Below are positions 5,683 to 45,782 of a stretch of DNA of 64,000 nt, one piece after another. The notes beneath the pieces were generated by a model that worked only from the letters and a program-made list of their open reading frames with translations, made no database searches and was not told the origin of the DNA. Origin of the DNA: Burkholderiales bacterium (GTDB lineage: Bacteria > Pseudomonadota > Gammaproteobacteria > Burkholderiales > Thiobacteraceae). A program made the translations under genes and the position numbers. Positions within the stretch are counted from its first letter, which is position 1; the number at the start of each line of letters is the position of its first letter. The stretch covers positions 1 through 64,000 of the forward strand of contig JAIMAL010000004.1 of the NCBI GenBank assembly GCA_023511995.1, written 5' to 3'.

Positions 5683-7221
<1,539 letters not shown>

Positions 7222-40650: not shown

Positions 40651-41100
40651 GTGGATTTGATCCTTTGGCGACACGCCGAGGCGGAAGATGGGGTGCCGGA
40701 CAAAGCCCGCGATCTCACGGCAAAAGGGGAAAAACAGGCCAGCCGCATGGCGGCGTGGTTGAAGTCCCGGCTGCCCCAGGAAACGAAAGTGCTCACCAGC
40801 CCCGCCACGCGGGCGATCCGCACCGCAAGCTACTTGGTGGATGAGCCGGAAGTGGTGCGTGCGCTGGACGTGGGAGCCACGCCCGCGGCGGTGCTTGCGG
40901 CGGCGGGCTGGCCGGAGAATGGCAGTGTGGTGGTGGTCGGCCACCAGCCGACCCTGGGCCGCGTGGCGGCACTCCTCCTTTCCGGCGAGGAGGCGGACTG
41001 GGTGATCAAGAAGGGTGCCATCTGGTGGTTCACCAACCGCGTGCGGGGTGGCGAGGCGCAGACCGTGCTGCGCGCAGTGATGGCACCGGACCTGCTGTAG
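40651..41100 (+). CDS. sixA: Phosphohistidine phosphatase SixA
   Basis: 149-aa histidine phosphatase with the catalytic motif LILWRHAEAEDG at the very N-terminus, TSPATRAIRTA and VVGHQPTLGRVAALLL, which match SixA in length and order. In E. coli SixA dephosphorylates phosphotransfer proteins (ArcB HPt, PTS-Ntr NPr). GTG 40651 follows CGGAGG. Confidence 0.92.
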   Translation: MDLILWRHAEAEDGVPDKARDLTAKGEKQASRMAAWLKSRLPQETKVLTSPATRAIRTASYLVDEPEVVRALDVGATPAAVLAAAGWPENGSVVVVGHQPTLGRVAALLLSGEEADWVIKKGAIWWFTNRVRGGEAQTVLRAVMAPDLL

Positions 41101-41133: not shown

Positions 41134-41916
41134 TCAGGCGGGGATGCGGTAGATCTCCGGCCCCATGAGGTCGATGCCGCAGGGCAGGTTCTCGAACCAG
41201 TCGAGGAAGCGGTTCACCATGGCCCGGCCACGGAAGGGCGGGCCATGCTGGGGCACCAGCCATTCCACCTCCAGCTTGCGCACCATCTGCACCCAGCCGC
41301 GGGCGGCGCGGTTGGAGACCATGATGCGCCGGTGGAAGGGCTCCATATAGGGCAGATGGGCATCGAAGTCCTCCACGGGACTGCCTGCTTTGGCCACCTC
41401 CACCATGGAGGCGCCCACATCTCCGGAAAAGAGGATTTTGCTCACCGGATCGTAGAAGTGGAAATTGCCCTCGGCGTGGAGAAAATGCGCGGGCAGGGCG
41501 ATGATCTCGCTTCTGCCCAGTGGAATGCGCATGCCCTCGTCGGGAATGGCAACAATGCGACCGGCGGTGTTGCCCACGGTGCAGAAATGGGGCACGAAGC
41601 GGGCCCAGAGTTTCGAGATGTAGATCCTGCAATCGGTGTGCACCATCCACTTGTTGGCGGAGGCGACGATGTCCGGGTCGGCGTGGGAGGCCAGCACGTA
41701 GGCGAGCCTGCGCGGCGGGAAATGGGCGTGCATGGCCATGAACAGCGCGTTGTAGGTCATGTTGCCACCGGGGTCGATGAGCGCCCCCACGTGGTCATCC
41801 ACGACCAGGAACTGGTTACTCTGCACCGCGCAATGGTCGATGGTGCACTCGTCGGTGACCAGATCGGTGAACGCGAGGCAGACGTGCCGGCCATCGTCGT
41901 ACAGGGTGAGGGGCAT
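41134..41916 (-). CDS. ODP-like di-iron metallo-beta-lactamase-fold protein
   Basis: 260-aa protein with the metallo-beta-lactamase fold of flavodiiron proteins but no flavodoxin domain. Putative metal ligands in order: ASHADPDIVAS (HxDxD, where flavodiiron proteins have HxExDH), HFLHAEGNFHFYD, LFSGDVGAS and VPQHGPPF. It resembles the oxygen-binding di-iron protein (ODP) that serves as a chemotaxis oxygen sensor in Treponema denticola. It lies 12 bases behind the chemoreceptor gene on the same strand, which supports a sensory rather than reductase role. The changed ligands need metal analysis. Confidence 0.8.
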   Translation of the reverse strand: MPLTLYDDGRHVCLAFTDLVTDECTIDHCAVQSNQFLVVDDHVGALIDPGGNMTYNALFMAMHAHFPPRRLAYVLASHADPDIVASANKWMVHTDCRIYISKLWARFVPHFCTVGNTAGRIVAIPDEGMRIPLGRSEIIALPAHFLHAEGNFHFYDPVSKILFSGDVGASMVEVAKAGSPVEDFDAHLPYMEPFHRRIMVSNRAARGWVQMVRKLEVEWLVPQHGPPFRGRAMVNRFLDWFENLPCGIDLMGPEIYRIPA

Positions 41917-41928
41917 GGGCGAGCTCCT

Positions 41929-43167
41929 TCAGGTGAGATGGAAACGATCGATGCTTCGCTTGAGCGCGTCTGCCGCATTGGCGAGCGCTGCCGCGGTGGC
42001 CGTGGTGTGCTGGCTGCTTTGCGCGAGTCGGGTGGAGTGGGTGCGCATCGCGTCCAACTGCGTGTCGATGGTCCGGGTGGCGGCGAGCTGTAGCATGAGG
42101 GCGTGGGCGATGGCCTCCACGGCCGCCACCACGTCTGCTTGGGCGCGACCGATGTCGTGCATGGCCTGAGCAGCCTGAGCCGAGCGGGCGGCACCGGCCT
42201 GCACGCCGGCTACCGTCTGTTCCATGATTTCGACGGCCTTTTGCGCTGCGTGGGCGACGTTCTCCACCAGCGCAGTGATGTGGTCGCTGGAGGCGGTGGT
42301 CCGTTCGGCAAGCTTGCGCACTTCGTCAGCAACGACGGCAAAACCGCGCCCCTGTTCCCCCGCGCGGGCGGCCTCGATGGCCGCGTTGAGGGCGAGCAGA
42401 TTCGTCTGGTCGGCCAGTTCCCGGATGACCTGGACGATGCCGCGGATGTCGCGGGTGTGCGCATCCAGGCCGCGCAGGGAGTCGGCGGTGGCGCCCACCA
42501 GGCTGGCGATGCTGCGCGTCTCTTCCGCTCCCTGGGTGACCAGGGCAGCAGCTTGAGTGGCGGTTTCACTGGTGCGTTCCGTGAGCTCCCGCGCCCGGGC
42601 CGTGCGTTCGGCCACTTCGCCCAGGGTGTGTTGTAATTGCCCCACCAGCGCGCCCACGTCGTGAATTTCCCGGACCAGCGTGGTGATCACGCGTGCATTG
42701 TCGTCAGCTGCCGCCTGCAATGCGGGCGAAGTCTCCGTCAACAATCCCATCTGGCTTTTGATCTCCTGCACCAAGCGACGCAGATGGTCCCGCATGGAGG
42801 CGATGTGGCTCGCCAGTTGGGCCATTTCATCCGTGCCGCGACAATCCACCTCATGGTCGAGGCGTCCTTCGGAAATGGCGTCTGCGGCGTACATGGCCTG
42901 TTTCAGTCCGGAATGCAGGCGACGCAGGGCGGCCAGCCCCATGCCCGTGCCCACGATGGCGGCGACCACGGCGAGCACTACGAACAAGAGGCGGGCCTGG
43001 TCGCGCACGGCCAGCATGGATGCGATGCTGTCCGTGGTGGGCGATTGTGCCAGGTCAATCACCTGGTCCAGAGCCAGCCAGCCCACGCCGATAGCGGCAT
43101 AAAAGACCGCGGTGGCAAAGGCGGCCCACAGCCAGATGCGGTTTTGCAGCGTCAGTCTAGGTAACAT
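41929..43167 (-). CDS. Methyl-accepting chemotaxis protein with minimal sensor part
   Basis: 412-aa chemoreceptor. TM1 ([23 protein letters not shown]) and TM2 ([22 protein letters not shown]) enclose only about 30 periplasmic residues, too few for a ligand domain. A HAMP segment and a long coiled coil follow, with the conserved tip [37 protein letters not shown]. The signal is therefore probably sensed in the cytoplasm or by a partner; the ODP-like protein encoded next is the obvious candidate. ATG 43167 follows GGAGGA with the right spacing. Confidence 0.9.
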
Positions 43168-43199
43168 GATCATTTCCTCCAACTCACCAAGCATCGTCC

Positions 43200-43280
43200 G
43201 CTAGCAGTCTGTTGCGCATCCCCCGCCCTCAACGCGGGGAGAGGCAAGCGGCCCAAGGCGTTTTTCGACAGACGGCTAGC
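43200..43280. repeat. 81-bp inverted-repeat element (MITE/REP-like)
   Basis: The ends GCTAGCAGTCTGTTG (43200-43214) and CGACAGACGGCTAGC (43266-43280) are inverted repeats with two mismatches in 15. Inside is a hairpin CCCCGC/GCGGGG (43221-43239). The right end contains the stop codon of the GGDEF/EAL gene (43276-43278), and the element fills nearly all of the gap before the MCP gene. It has no coding capacity. Confidence 0.65.
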
Positions 43281-45366
43281 GGGCCCCCAAAAAGTGCATG
43301 AACTCGGCCATCACCATCGGCCGTGCGAAGAGATATCCCTGGGCCTTGCGGCAGCCCATCTGCAGCAGCATCTGCCGTTGCGTTTCGCTCTCCACGCCCT
43401 CGGCGATCACCTCTATCTCCAGACTTTCGGCCATGCGGATGATGGCCTCCACCAGCTTGCGGTTGTGGACGTTGTGCTCCATTCCGCTCACGAAGCCCAT
43501 GTCGATCTTCAGCCGGTCCACGCTGAAACGCAGCAGATAAGCCAGATTGGAATAGCCGGTGCCGAAATCGTCCACTGCCAGCTGTACGCCCAGTTCATGC
43601 AGGCGCTGCAGGGTCCTGACCTGGACACTATCCTCTCCCATGAGGCTGGATTCGGTGATCTCCACTTCCACCCTGCCGGGGGGAAGGGCGATGCGTCCCA
43701 GTTGTTCACCCAAGATGTCTGGCAGTAGGGGTTCGTGCAGGCTGCGCGCGGAGAAATTGAGCGCGAATTGCAGGGAGTCCTGGGGTTGTGTCAGCAGCAG
43801 GGTCTTCAGGTCGCCACAGAACGCTTCGATCAGCCAGGCGGTGAACTTGGGGGCGAGCCCCGTCTCCTCCACCACCGGAATGAAGCGGGCGGGGCTGATG
43901 GGTCCCAGCCGGGGATGCACCCAGCGGGCCAGGGCCTCGACGCCTACAACCCTGCCATCGCCAAGATGCACCTGCGGCTGCCAGGCAAGGTGCAGCCCCT
44001 CCCCCGAGTCCAGCGCGGCGCGCAGCGCGTTGGCGAGTTCCAGTCGTTCGCTGGCGCGGCGCCCCATGCCGGGTTCAAAAACGCACCAGCGGCTACCTGC
44101 GCCCTGTTTGGCCGCATACAGGGCGGTGTCCGCGTGGCGCATCAAGGTTTCGGCATTGTCGCCGTGATCGGGGAAACAGGCGATGCCTATGCTGGCGCTT
44201 ACCCGCAGTTCGCGGTCTGCCAGCTGGAACGGCCGATCGAAGGCAGCGAGCACCTTGCGCGCCACGGTGCGGGAATCGCCTTCGTGTTCCATCCCACACA
44301 GAATCAGGGTGAATTCGTCTCCGCCCATGCGCGCCACGGTGTCCGACTCCCGCAGCGTACTCCGCAGGCGCTGACCCACCTCCTGCAGCAGGGCATCCCC
44401 GGCCGAGTGGCCCAAGGCGTCGTTGATCTCCTTGAACCGGTCCAGGTCGAGGAACATCACGGCGAAGCGCTCTTTCGTCCGCTGGGCGTGCCCGATGGCG
44501 GCCGTCAGGCGTTCGCGGAAGAGGGCACGGTTGGGCAAGCCGGTGAGGGGATCGTGGAAGGCCAGATCGTAGAGTTGTCGCTGGACTTCCTGATCGCGGC
44601 TCATGTCCGAAAACACACCCACGTACCGATGGGGTTGACCGTGCTTGTCGCGGATGACATCGATGTGCAGATATTCCGGATACACCTCGCCGTTCTTGCG
44701 CCGGTTCCAGATTTCGCCGCTCCAGCGGCCTTCGCTCAGCAACTTCCCCCACATGGCGCGGTAAAAACCCTCATCATGCCGGCCGGAGGAGAGAACGTGG
44801 GGTGTTTTGCCCGCGACTTCTTCCAGGGTGTAGCCGGTGGTTTCCACGAAGGCGCGGTTGACGTAAAGGATGCGCGCCTGGGCGTCCGTCACCAGGATGC
44901 CCTCGCTGGTCGCTTCGAACACCGCCGCCGCCATGCGGTGATGGGTGAGCTCCTCTTCCAGCAGGCGGATTGTCGAGGCCAGCCGTTCGCGGCTGGCCTG
45001 TTCGCGCTGAAGCAGGCAGCGGAAGACCGACAGCCTCGTGACCACACCGATGAAGGTGCCCTCATCGTTGGTCACCGGCAGGCTGTCCCAGGGTCCCTCT
45101 TCCAGCCTGGCCAGGGTCTGCTCCAGGCTGGTGGTGGCAGCCACTGTCGGCGGCTGGCGTAGCAGCAAAAGATCGGCGAAGATGCGGTCGGGAAAGAGCG
45201 CCGCCTGACGCTCGCTGACGATGCCGAGCAACTGGCCGTTTTCCATGACGGCGAAGATGCGGTCGCTGGGGGCGGGGGGAAGGTCCCGGTAGCGGGCTTC
45301 CGTCTCGACTGCAACACAGGCATCCACCAGGCAGTCGGCGGCGCGGGGGTCGTAGCTGGCGTTCAT
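43276..45366 (-). CDS. CBS-PAS-GGDEF-EAL c-di-GMP protein
   Basis: 696-aa soluble protein without membrane helices. Two N-terminal CBS motifs (residues about 30-125, such as GQLLGIVSERQAAL and TFIGVVTRLSVF) may bind an adenine nucleotide. Next is a PAS domain (VFEATSEGILVTDAQARILYVN, RHDEGFYRAMW), then GGDEF with intact RMGGDEFTLIL and EAL with VEALARWVHP, ITESSLMGED and [10 protein letters not shown]. Both catalytic signatures look intact. Its ATG overlaps the preceding small gene (ATGA). Likely sigma-28 controlled, which ties it to motility. Confidence 0.92.
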   Translation of the reverse strand: MNASYDPRAADCLVDACVAVETEARYRDLPPAPSDRIFAVMENGQLLGIVSERQAALFPDRIFADLLLLRQPPTVAATTSLEQTLARLEEGPWDSLPVTNDEGTFIGVVTRLSVFRCLLQREQASRERLASTIRLLEEELTHHRMAAAVFEATSEGILVTDAQARILYVNRAFVETTGYTLEEVAGKTPHVLSSGRHDEGFYRAMWGKLLSEGRWSGEIWNRRKNGEVYPEYLHIDVIRDKHGQPHRYVGVFSDMSRDQEVQRQLYDLAFHDPLTGLPNRALFRERLTAAIGHAQRTKERFAVMFLDLDRFKEINDALGHSAGDALLQEVGQRLRSTLRESDTVARMGGDEFTLILCGMEHEGDSRTVARKVLAAFDRPFQLADRELRVSASIGIACFPDHGDNAETLMRHADTALYAAKQGAGSRWCVFEPGMGRRASERLELANALRAALDSGEGLHLAWQPQVHLGDGRVVGVEALARWVHPRLGPISPARFIPVVEETGLAPKFTAWLIEAFCGDLKTLLLTQPQDSLQFALNFSARSLHEPLLPDILGEQLGRIALPPGRVEVEITESSLMGEDSVQVRTLQRLHELGVQLAVDDFGTGYSNLAYLLRFSVDRLKIDMGFVSGMEHNVHNRKLVEAIIRMAESLEIEVIAEGVESETQRQMLLQMGCRKAQGYLFARPMVMAEFMHFLGAR

Positions 45367-45695
45367 AATGCTTGGATGTCCAGATGCGTGGTGACTTCGA
45401 GCTTGAGGTGGAGGATTTCGTCCGCCGCCATGAAGGGTTTCACATGGCGCAGGACCAGGCTTACCAGTTCCTGCTCATCCAGTTTGCGCAGAATGGCCTC
45501 CCGCACCAGGATGTCGCTCACCACATCGTCCTCCACTGGCACGCGGCGGTAGGGCGTGGTGCTGAGCAGGGACAGGGCGCGACTCATGGCGACATGGCCG
45601 ATGGGGGAGCGGGCGCCCATCACCAGGCCGTCCTCGATGGGGGGCAGCAGGAATTCGGAGAGGCTCAGGCGGACACTATGGCTATGAGAGATCAC
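45363..45695 (-). CDS. Small protein leading the sigma-28 operon, function unknown
   Basis: 110-aa soluble, acidic protein with no recognised domain. It includes MSRALSLLSTTPYRRVPVED, then VVSDILVREAILRKLDEQEL and ADEILHLKLEVTTHLDIQAL. GTG 45695 follows GGAGAAAAACC. It is translationally coupled to the CBS-PAS-GGDEF-EAL gene by a four-base overlap and lies first behind a near-consensus flagellar promoter, so a modulator or partner of that enzyme is the simplest guess. Confidence 0.6.
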   Translation of the reverse strand: MISHSHSVRLSLSEFLLPPIEDGLVMGARSPIGHVAMSRALSLLSTTPYRRVPVEDDVVSDILVREAILRKLDEQELVSLVLRHVKPFMAADEILHLKLEVTTHLDIQAL

Positions 45696-45755
45696 GGTTT
45701 TTCTCCAAGGCGGTGAGGTATCGTCGAAAAAAGGGATATTATTGTCTTAAAGTCT

Positions 45756-45782
45756 TTATCGTCCGTCAAAAACAAAACTTAA
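45756..45782 (-). promoter_or_regulatory. Sigma-28 (FliA) type promoter
   Basis: On the minus strand TTAAGTTT (45782-45775), 11 bases, and GACGATAA (45763-45756). This fits the flagellar consensus TAAAGTTT-N11-GCCGATAA at seven of eight positions in each box, with exact spacing, in an AT-rich island. Start of transcription is expected near 45748, about 53 bases before GTG 45695. Confidence 0.75.

Follow-up and report, generated by a model that had tools for sequence, protein, structure and literature searches.

A candidate two-protein oxygen receptor encoded with a c-di-GMP module in a probable flagellar operon of the Thiobacteraceae

The window analysed here (the whole 64,000-nucleotide stretch, from a Burkholderiales bacterium of the Thiobacteraceae) carries on its minus strand, read from 45782 to 41134, a FliA-type promoter followed in order by genes for a small protein (SP), a GGDEF-EAL enzyme (GE), a chemoreceptor (MCP) and a protein of the oxygen-binding di-iron family (ODP). 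On balance we lean towards the reading that MCP and ODP form a two-protein receptor resembling CetA/CetB, in which ODP is the sensor, and that this receptor is co-expressed with a separate c-di-GMP enzyme. The features are as follows:

Promoter, 45756..45782, minus strand: FliA (sigma-28)-type, TTAAGTTT-N11-GACGATAA
SP, 45363..45695, minus strand: small protein, 110 aa, GTG start, uncharacterised
GE, 43276..45366, minus strand: CBS-PAS-GGDEF-EAL protein, 696 aa
GE-MCP gap, 43168..43275, minus strand: contains an imperfect inverted repeat
MCP, 41929..43167, minus strand: TM helix, about 30 residues, TM helix, HAMP, signalling domain; the reading frame as listed extends to 43194 (421 aa)
ODP, 41134..41916, minus strand: 260 aa, MBL-fold oxygen-binding di-iron protein family

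The initial annotation had described these four reading frames as a single operon; all four were found where it placed them, and the single-operon claim is borne out by a sister species that conserves the entire gene order. This sister (G001) is the sole other genome of the window's genus in the sample; the four genes stand there in identical order, spaced by -4, 30 and 13 nt, and the sequence evidence for one operon is therefore good. In the window the SP stop and GE start overlap by 4 nt (ATGA), the GE-MCP gap is 108 nt when counted to the likely MCP start, and MCP and ODP are separated by 12 nt, with the ODP Shine-Dalgarno sequence (AAGGAG) overlapping the MCP stop. ODP appears to be the last gene of the operon, as the one beyond it (40651-41100) is encoded on the plus strand. 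Identity between the two genomes is 74.5% for SP, 62.4% for GE, 51.2% for MCP and 85.4% for ODP, and the four-gene arrangement was found in these two species only. A 12-bp imperfect inverted repeat (GCTAGCcGTCTG / CAGACtGCTAGC, window 43195-43280) lies across the GE-MCP gap; it is absent from the sister and has no second copy anywhere in the window's genome. It was rejected as a terminator, given that it folds no better than shuffled sequences (z 0.03), lacks a U-tract and occurs once in the genome, and that the corresponding gap of the sister is 30 nt.

The promoter is present exactly as it was first read. The FliA consensus is TAAAGTTT-N11-GCCGATAA; the window promoter lies two mismatches from this consensus, and its -10 box ends 60 nt upstream of the SP start. 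A scan of the whole genome (2.5 Mb) returned seven sites with two or fewer mismatches, the window promoter among them, and 20 with three or fewer. The reversed pattern, used as a control on the same genome, still gave 10 sites at three or fewer mismatches, and single matches at three mismatches are therefore weak. When 19.48 million positions were simulated with a first-order Markov model, no site was seen at two or fewer mismatches and nine were seen at three or fewer, corresponding to 2.3 expected per genome. The genome encodes FliA (profile match of 285 bits), alongside two cheA genes, cheW and cheB, and FliA-type sites precede genes for a Tar-like MCP, a PAS-MCP, an MCP that opens a che cluster and flagellin. 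Further sites lie before one GGDEF-EAL gene and two HDOD genes, and the remainder stand before a PP2C gene, a gene without a Pfam match or no clear gene. The genome count set against the simulation makes the window promoter credible, and the proposal that it is of FliA type is upheld by the presence of fliA and by like sites ahead of the flagellin gene and further MCP genes; expression of the operon would be FliA-dependent. In the sister, a weaker site (TCTAGTCC-N11-GCCGCTAA, five mismatches, not significant alone) is found 59 nt before SP; among ODP genes, a best upstream site with five mismatches is nothing unusual.

ODP matches PF19583 over the full profile (1-194 of 194), scoring 242.5 bits where the curated cut-off is 27.2. 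Its best solved relative is 6qrq ('Oxygen-binding diiron protein', E 7.7e-62), followed by 6qnm (E 4e-53), and a more distant one is the A-type flavoprotein 2q9u (E 8e-4). All seven ligand positions are present (H78, D80, D82, H147, D166, Q223 and H224, giving HxDxD, H, D and QH); the six other than Q223 are invariant in 119 of 119 rows, and Q223 is found in 118. At the site of the lost third motif-2 His the window protein has I83, and in the ODP of T. maritima a Gln ligand has been described as replacing this His (PMC7785958; this and the other papers are cited from excerpts). The 260-aa protein gave MBL/ODP matches only in Pfam and thus lacks a flavodoxin domain, and none of the genes adjoining it at the locus encodes a redox partner. 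The PF19583 match and the full ligand set thus agree with its earlier identification as an ODP-like di-iron protein, and predict that it binds iron and O2. True ODPs (>200 bits) occur in both genomes of the window's genus (2/2) and in none of the eight genomes of the family's other genus (best match 59.6), and ODPs at E<=1e-30 are found in 67 of the 369 sampled genomes of the class.

The likely start of MCP is M10 at 43167, behind GGAGG. The protein is predicted to contain TM helices at 20-38 and 69-87, a HAMP domain at 91-139 and an MCPsignal domain at 205-384. Its layout, two TM helices joined by a periplasmic loop of some 30 residues (26 in the sister) and no ligand-binding domain, confirms the earlier description of a sensor-less receptor. 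Comparison of the window and sister proteins region by region gave identities of 27/34 in TM1, 3/23 in the loop, 17/24 in TM2 and 30/50 in HAMP, and, in the cytoplasmic part, 36/105 in the first arm, 48/60 in the tip and 50/116 in the second arm. The loop and tip values thus show that the periplasmic part lacks a conserved ligand site and that the kinase-binding tip is intact. When the other 368 genomes sampled from the class were searched, none had a relative of the MCP N-terminus.

The first two genes of the operon have a distribution of their own. GE contains the Pfam domains CBS (70-118), PAS (147-255), GGDEF (269-422) and EAL (446-683), and its GGDEF, I-site RxxD, EALARW, DDFGTG and AEGVE motifs are intact, as would be expected of a bifunctional GGDEF-EAL enzyme with cyclase and phosphodiesterase activity. 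SP has no match in Pfam or NCBIfam, and the 17 members of its family that were scanned gave no confident Pfam match and no CBS domain in Pfam; searches of the PDB reached CBS proteins only weakly (E 0.05-0.2), hhalign against GE N-termini gave a 3.7% probability, so that a CBS domain in SP is a lead at most. A structure predicted from the single sequence had a mean pLDDT of 51.8 and was set aside. SP was also considered as a frameshifted piece of GE, an idea that was rejected as relatives too carry SP and GE as separate neighbouring genes. Indeed SP lies directly before a GGDEF-EAL gene at 17 of 17 loci (the window, 45363-45695, and L112, L168, L169 and L292-L304), often with a 4-nt overlap, a run of Ns lying between the two genes at L302; the partner has a CBS-like N-terminus and mostly also a PAS domain. 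A single-sequence search found SP in five of the 369 class genomes, of which two gave weak matches that fall within large reading frames unrelated to SP; with a profile it was found in 15 of the 399 genomes sampled from the order. Among the 17 loci, MCP and ODP follow SP-GE in the window's genus only, two MBL-type matches at L296 not being counted as ODP; nine of the 15 other SP genomes are without ODP (E<=1e-30) and the remaining six have it on a different contig from SP. SP-GE is an independent module, mostly without ODP or MCP, and GE therefore has a conserved partner of its own and does not need ODP. SP is likely to be an uncharacterised regulatory partner of the GGDEF-EAL enzyme.

The neighbourhood of ODP genes was surveyed at 103 loci, comprising that of the sister, 16 other strong matches from a family-inclusive search and the listed matches of the class search, less the partial G142, the window's own locus, second copies on the same contig and two from G024 that were already included. 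Some loci are cut by contig ends, among them L240, which is labelled as standing alone, stops at the end of its contig and sits in the GGDEF clade. A short MCP (171-299 aa, without clear TM helices, some showing weak hydrophobic peaks of 1.6-1.8) was found directly upstream of ODP at 34/103 loci, and ODP genes are therefore regularly coupled to receptors. A GGDEF-EAL gene lies directly downstream at 5/103, the sister operon accounts for 1/103 and neither arrangement is seen at 63/103; in a set of 80 named loci no MCP or GGDEF/EAL match adjoined ODP. In an ODP tree of 119 rows, 12 of them picked from these 80 loci, the window and sister proteins group together (support 100) among stand-alone betaproteobacterial ODPs (supports 88, 93, 98 and 99), their exact sister group being uncertain in this quick tree with many open forks. 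They fall outside both the short-MCP clade (support 99) and the GGDEF clade (support 92). AU tests, run on a 60-row subset minus four long-branch rows, rejected trees in which they join the short-MCP rows (p 0.000238) or the GGDEF rows (p 1e-50). Since joining the window ODP to the short-MCP clade is rejected, the link between ODP and MCP seems to have arisen separately in the window's genus.

Elsewhere in the clade of the window ODP there is no adjacent MCP or GGDEF/EAL gene. Membership of stand-alone ODPs in the FliA regulon was considered and discarded, one of 80 having a site at three or fewer mismatches, and no constant neighbour was found for them, the biggest same-strand neighbour groups comprising four loci (one of the two consisting at least partly of ODP fragments). 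With neither receptors nor FliA sites in the clade, the ancestor of ODP may have done another job.

Several further arrangements were seen in the survey. The five loci of the separate ODP clade in which GGDEF-EAL follows ODP (L116, L118, L124, L242 and L248) are candidates for O2-to-c-di-GMP control, independent of the window operon. In five short MCP-ODP loci a third gene follows (for example 8165-8971 of L115, 268 aa), the product of which, at L115 and the four others, looks CheR-like. At L275 and L276 ODP has a short MCP on its upstream side and, on its downstream side, an MCP of 420-424 aa without TM helices, which in L276 has a C-terminal CZB zinc-binding domain. At L123, the locus of the nearest ODP relative, an HDOD gene (6268-7155) stands directly upstream of ODP, and the window's genome contains a comparable HDOD gene (G000:C9, near 56081) that has a FliA-type site with two mismatches. 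In Comamonadaceae loci (L036, L041 and others) the ODP gene is convergent with its neighbours, presumably msrPQ, for methionine sulfoxide repair.

The ODP-MCP pair of Treponema denticola is reportedly TDE2498-TDE2496, from work by Muok and co-workers in 2019. By sensor this pair is the nearest relative of the one proposed here, an ODP-family protein being encoded beside a chemoreceptor without a sensing module; its MCP is described as soluble and without TM helices (PMC7666581, excerpt), whereas the window MCP has two TM helices and HAMP, and the window adds SP-GE and a FliA-type promoter. Binding of ODP to its cognate receptors has been described as conformation-dependent (excerpt of PMC6978683), and ODP genes are reported to share operons with MCP genes, the two occurring in either order, or with other signalling genes, and also to be fused to signalling domains (excerpt of PMC7319448). 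These reports are precedents for the initial suggestion that ODP is the missing sensor of MCP, the contact itself being proposed here by analogy; and as operons that pair ODP with MCP have been published before, the core idea is less novel than the initial annotation suggested. Compared with the short-MCP-linked ODPs of the survey, the window ODP belongs to a different clade and its MCP is neither short nor TM-less. The operons of ODP with signalling genes (PMC7319448, excerpt) have their counterpart in the five surveyed loci with c-di-GMP enzymes, but there ODP directly precedes GGDEF-EAL, whereas the window GE lies two genes upstream of ODP with its own partner SP. The nearest working analogue is CetA/CetB of Campylobacter jejuni and Magnetospirillum gryphiswaldense, which in the excerpt of PMC12442639 pairs a sensor-less membrane transducer with a separate cytoplasmic redox or O2 sensor encoded next door, in aerotaxis; CetB is a PAS-FAD protein, whereas the candidate sensor of the window is a di-iron MBL-fold ODP. 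No description of an ODP, a membrane MCP and a c-di-GMP enzyme together was found in open-licence PMC titles and abstract openings, and one may exist elsewhere. The hemerythrin fold is unrelated to that of ODP. Hemerythrin-domain receptors of the DcrH type (PMC13401364, excerpt) share with the proposed system non-haem di-iron O2 sensing for taxis, but in these sensor and receptor are fused in one protein.

In the mechanism that we favour, FliA would drive a four-gene operon built of two modules. SP and the CBS-PAS-GGDEF-EAL enzyme would set c-di-GMP, whilst in the second module the soluble di-iron ODP would take up O2, or lose or gain Fe(II), dock on the cytoplasmic part of the membrane-anchored MCP and alter its control of CheA, working as CetA/CetB do, except that ODP would stand in for the FAD-PAS sensor. 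Contact between ODP and MCP and an effect on CheA are thus expected by analogy. Flagellated cells would express both modules together; ODP might also control GE directly, but the scheme does not require it. The absence of a sensor domain from MCP in both species and the tight MCP-ODP gap (12-13 nt) argue for ODP as the sensor. Against this, MCP is unlike the short soluble kind that ODP is known to serve, and TM1 and TM2 are, in the two species, roughly as conserved as the tip, so that the membrane part itself may matter.

This last point keeps alive a different reading, which we judge unlikely, in which MCP serves energy taxis, its own TM helices and HAMP sensing the state of the membrane or of respiration, and ODP is merely co-expressed, for instance for O2 or iron handling. 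The unusual conservation of the TM helices, set against 51% identity overall and a divergent loop, fits such a receptor, as does the occurrence of close ODP relatives without a receptor gene; the TM comparison rests on two sequences, however, the tight MCP-ODP coupling is kept in both species, and coupling of ODP to receptors is common in the family and published (PMC7319448, excerpt). Less probable again is that ODP acts as an enzyme or scavenger of O2, peroxide or NO that is made with the flagellar regulon and has no signalling role. Its kinship to flavodiiron proteins (2q9u) and the lack of a constant signalling neighbour beside stand-alone relatives would suit this role, which is countered by the missing flavodoxin domain and redox partner gene and by a ligand set, with Gln for the third His, that is that of the described sensor (PMC7785958, excerpt).

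It is also rather doubtful, though a little less so than scavenging, that ODP feeds GE, perhaps through SP, besides or instead of MCP, which would make one circuit from O2 to both c-di-GMP and chemotaxis. The sharing of the operon by two species and the separate clade with GGDEF-EAL right after ODP speak for it, but of the 15 other SP genomes most (9/15) have no ODP and the rest (6/15) carry it on a different contig, ODP is of the operon's genes the furthest from GE, and the AU test places the window ODP outside the GGDEF-linked clade. The initial annotation had linked O2 sensing, chemotaxis and c-di-GMP in one transcript; the operon's presence in two species supports co-expression of O2 sensing with c-di-GMP, whereas a single signalling unit is not supported, SP-GE being independent and the ODP clade standing elsewhere without MCP or GGDEF/EAL. 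The boldest version, to which we give a similarly small chance, is an undescribed bipartite transmembrane O2 receptor, made of ODP and a two-TM MCP without a ligand-binding domain, independent of the known ODP-MCP pairs and wired to the c-di-GMP enzyme of the same flagellar operon, such that one di-iron protein would set both turning bias and c-di-GMP.

The SP-GE pair is in its own right an undescribed c-di-GMP module of two genes. Should ODP be the sensor of MCP, taxis would have recruited di-iron MBL proteins on at least two occasions, for soluble and for membrane-anchored receptors, and the pair of MCP and ODP, which could be transferred to a laboratory strain, would offer a ready test case for how a detached sensor signals to a chemoreceptor without a ligand-binding domain.
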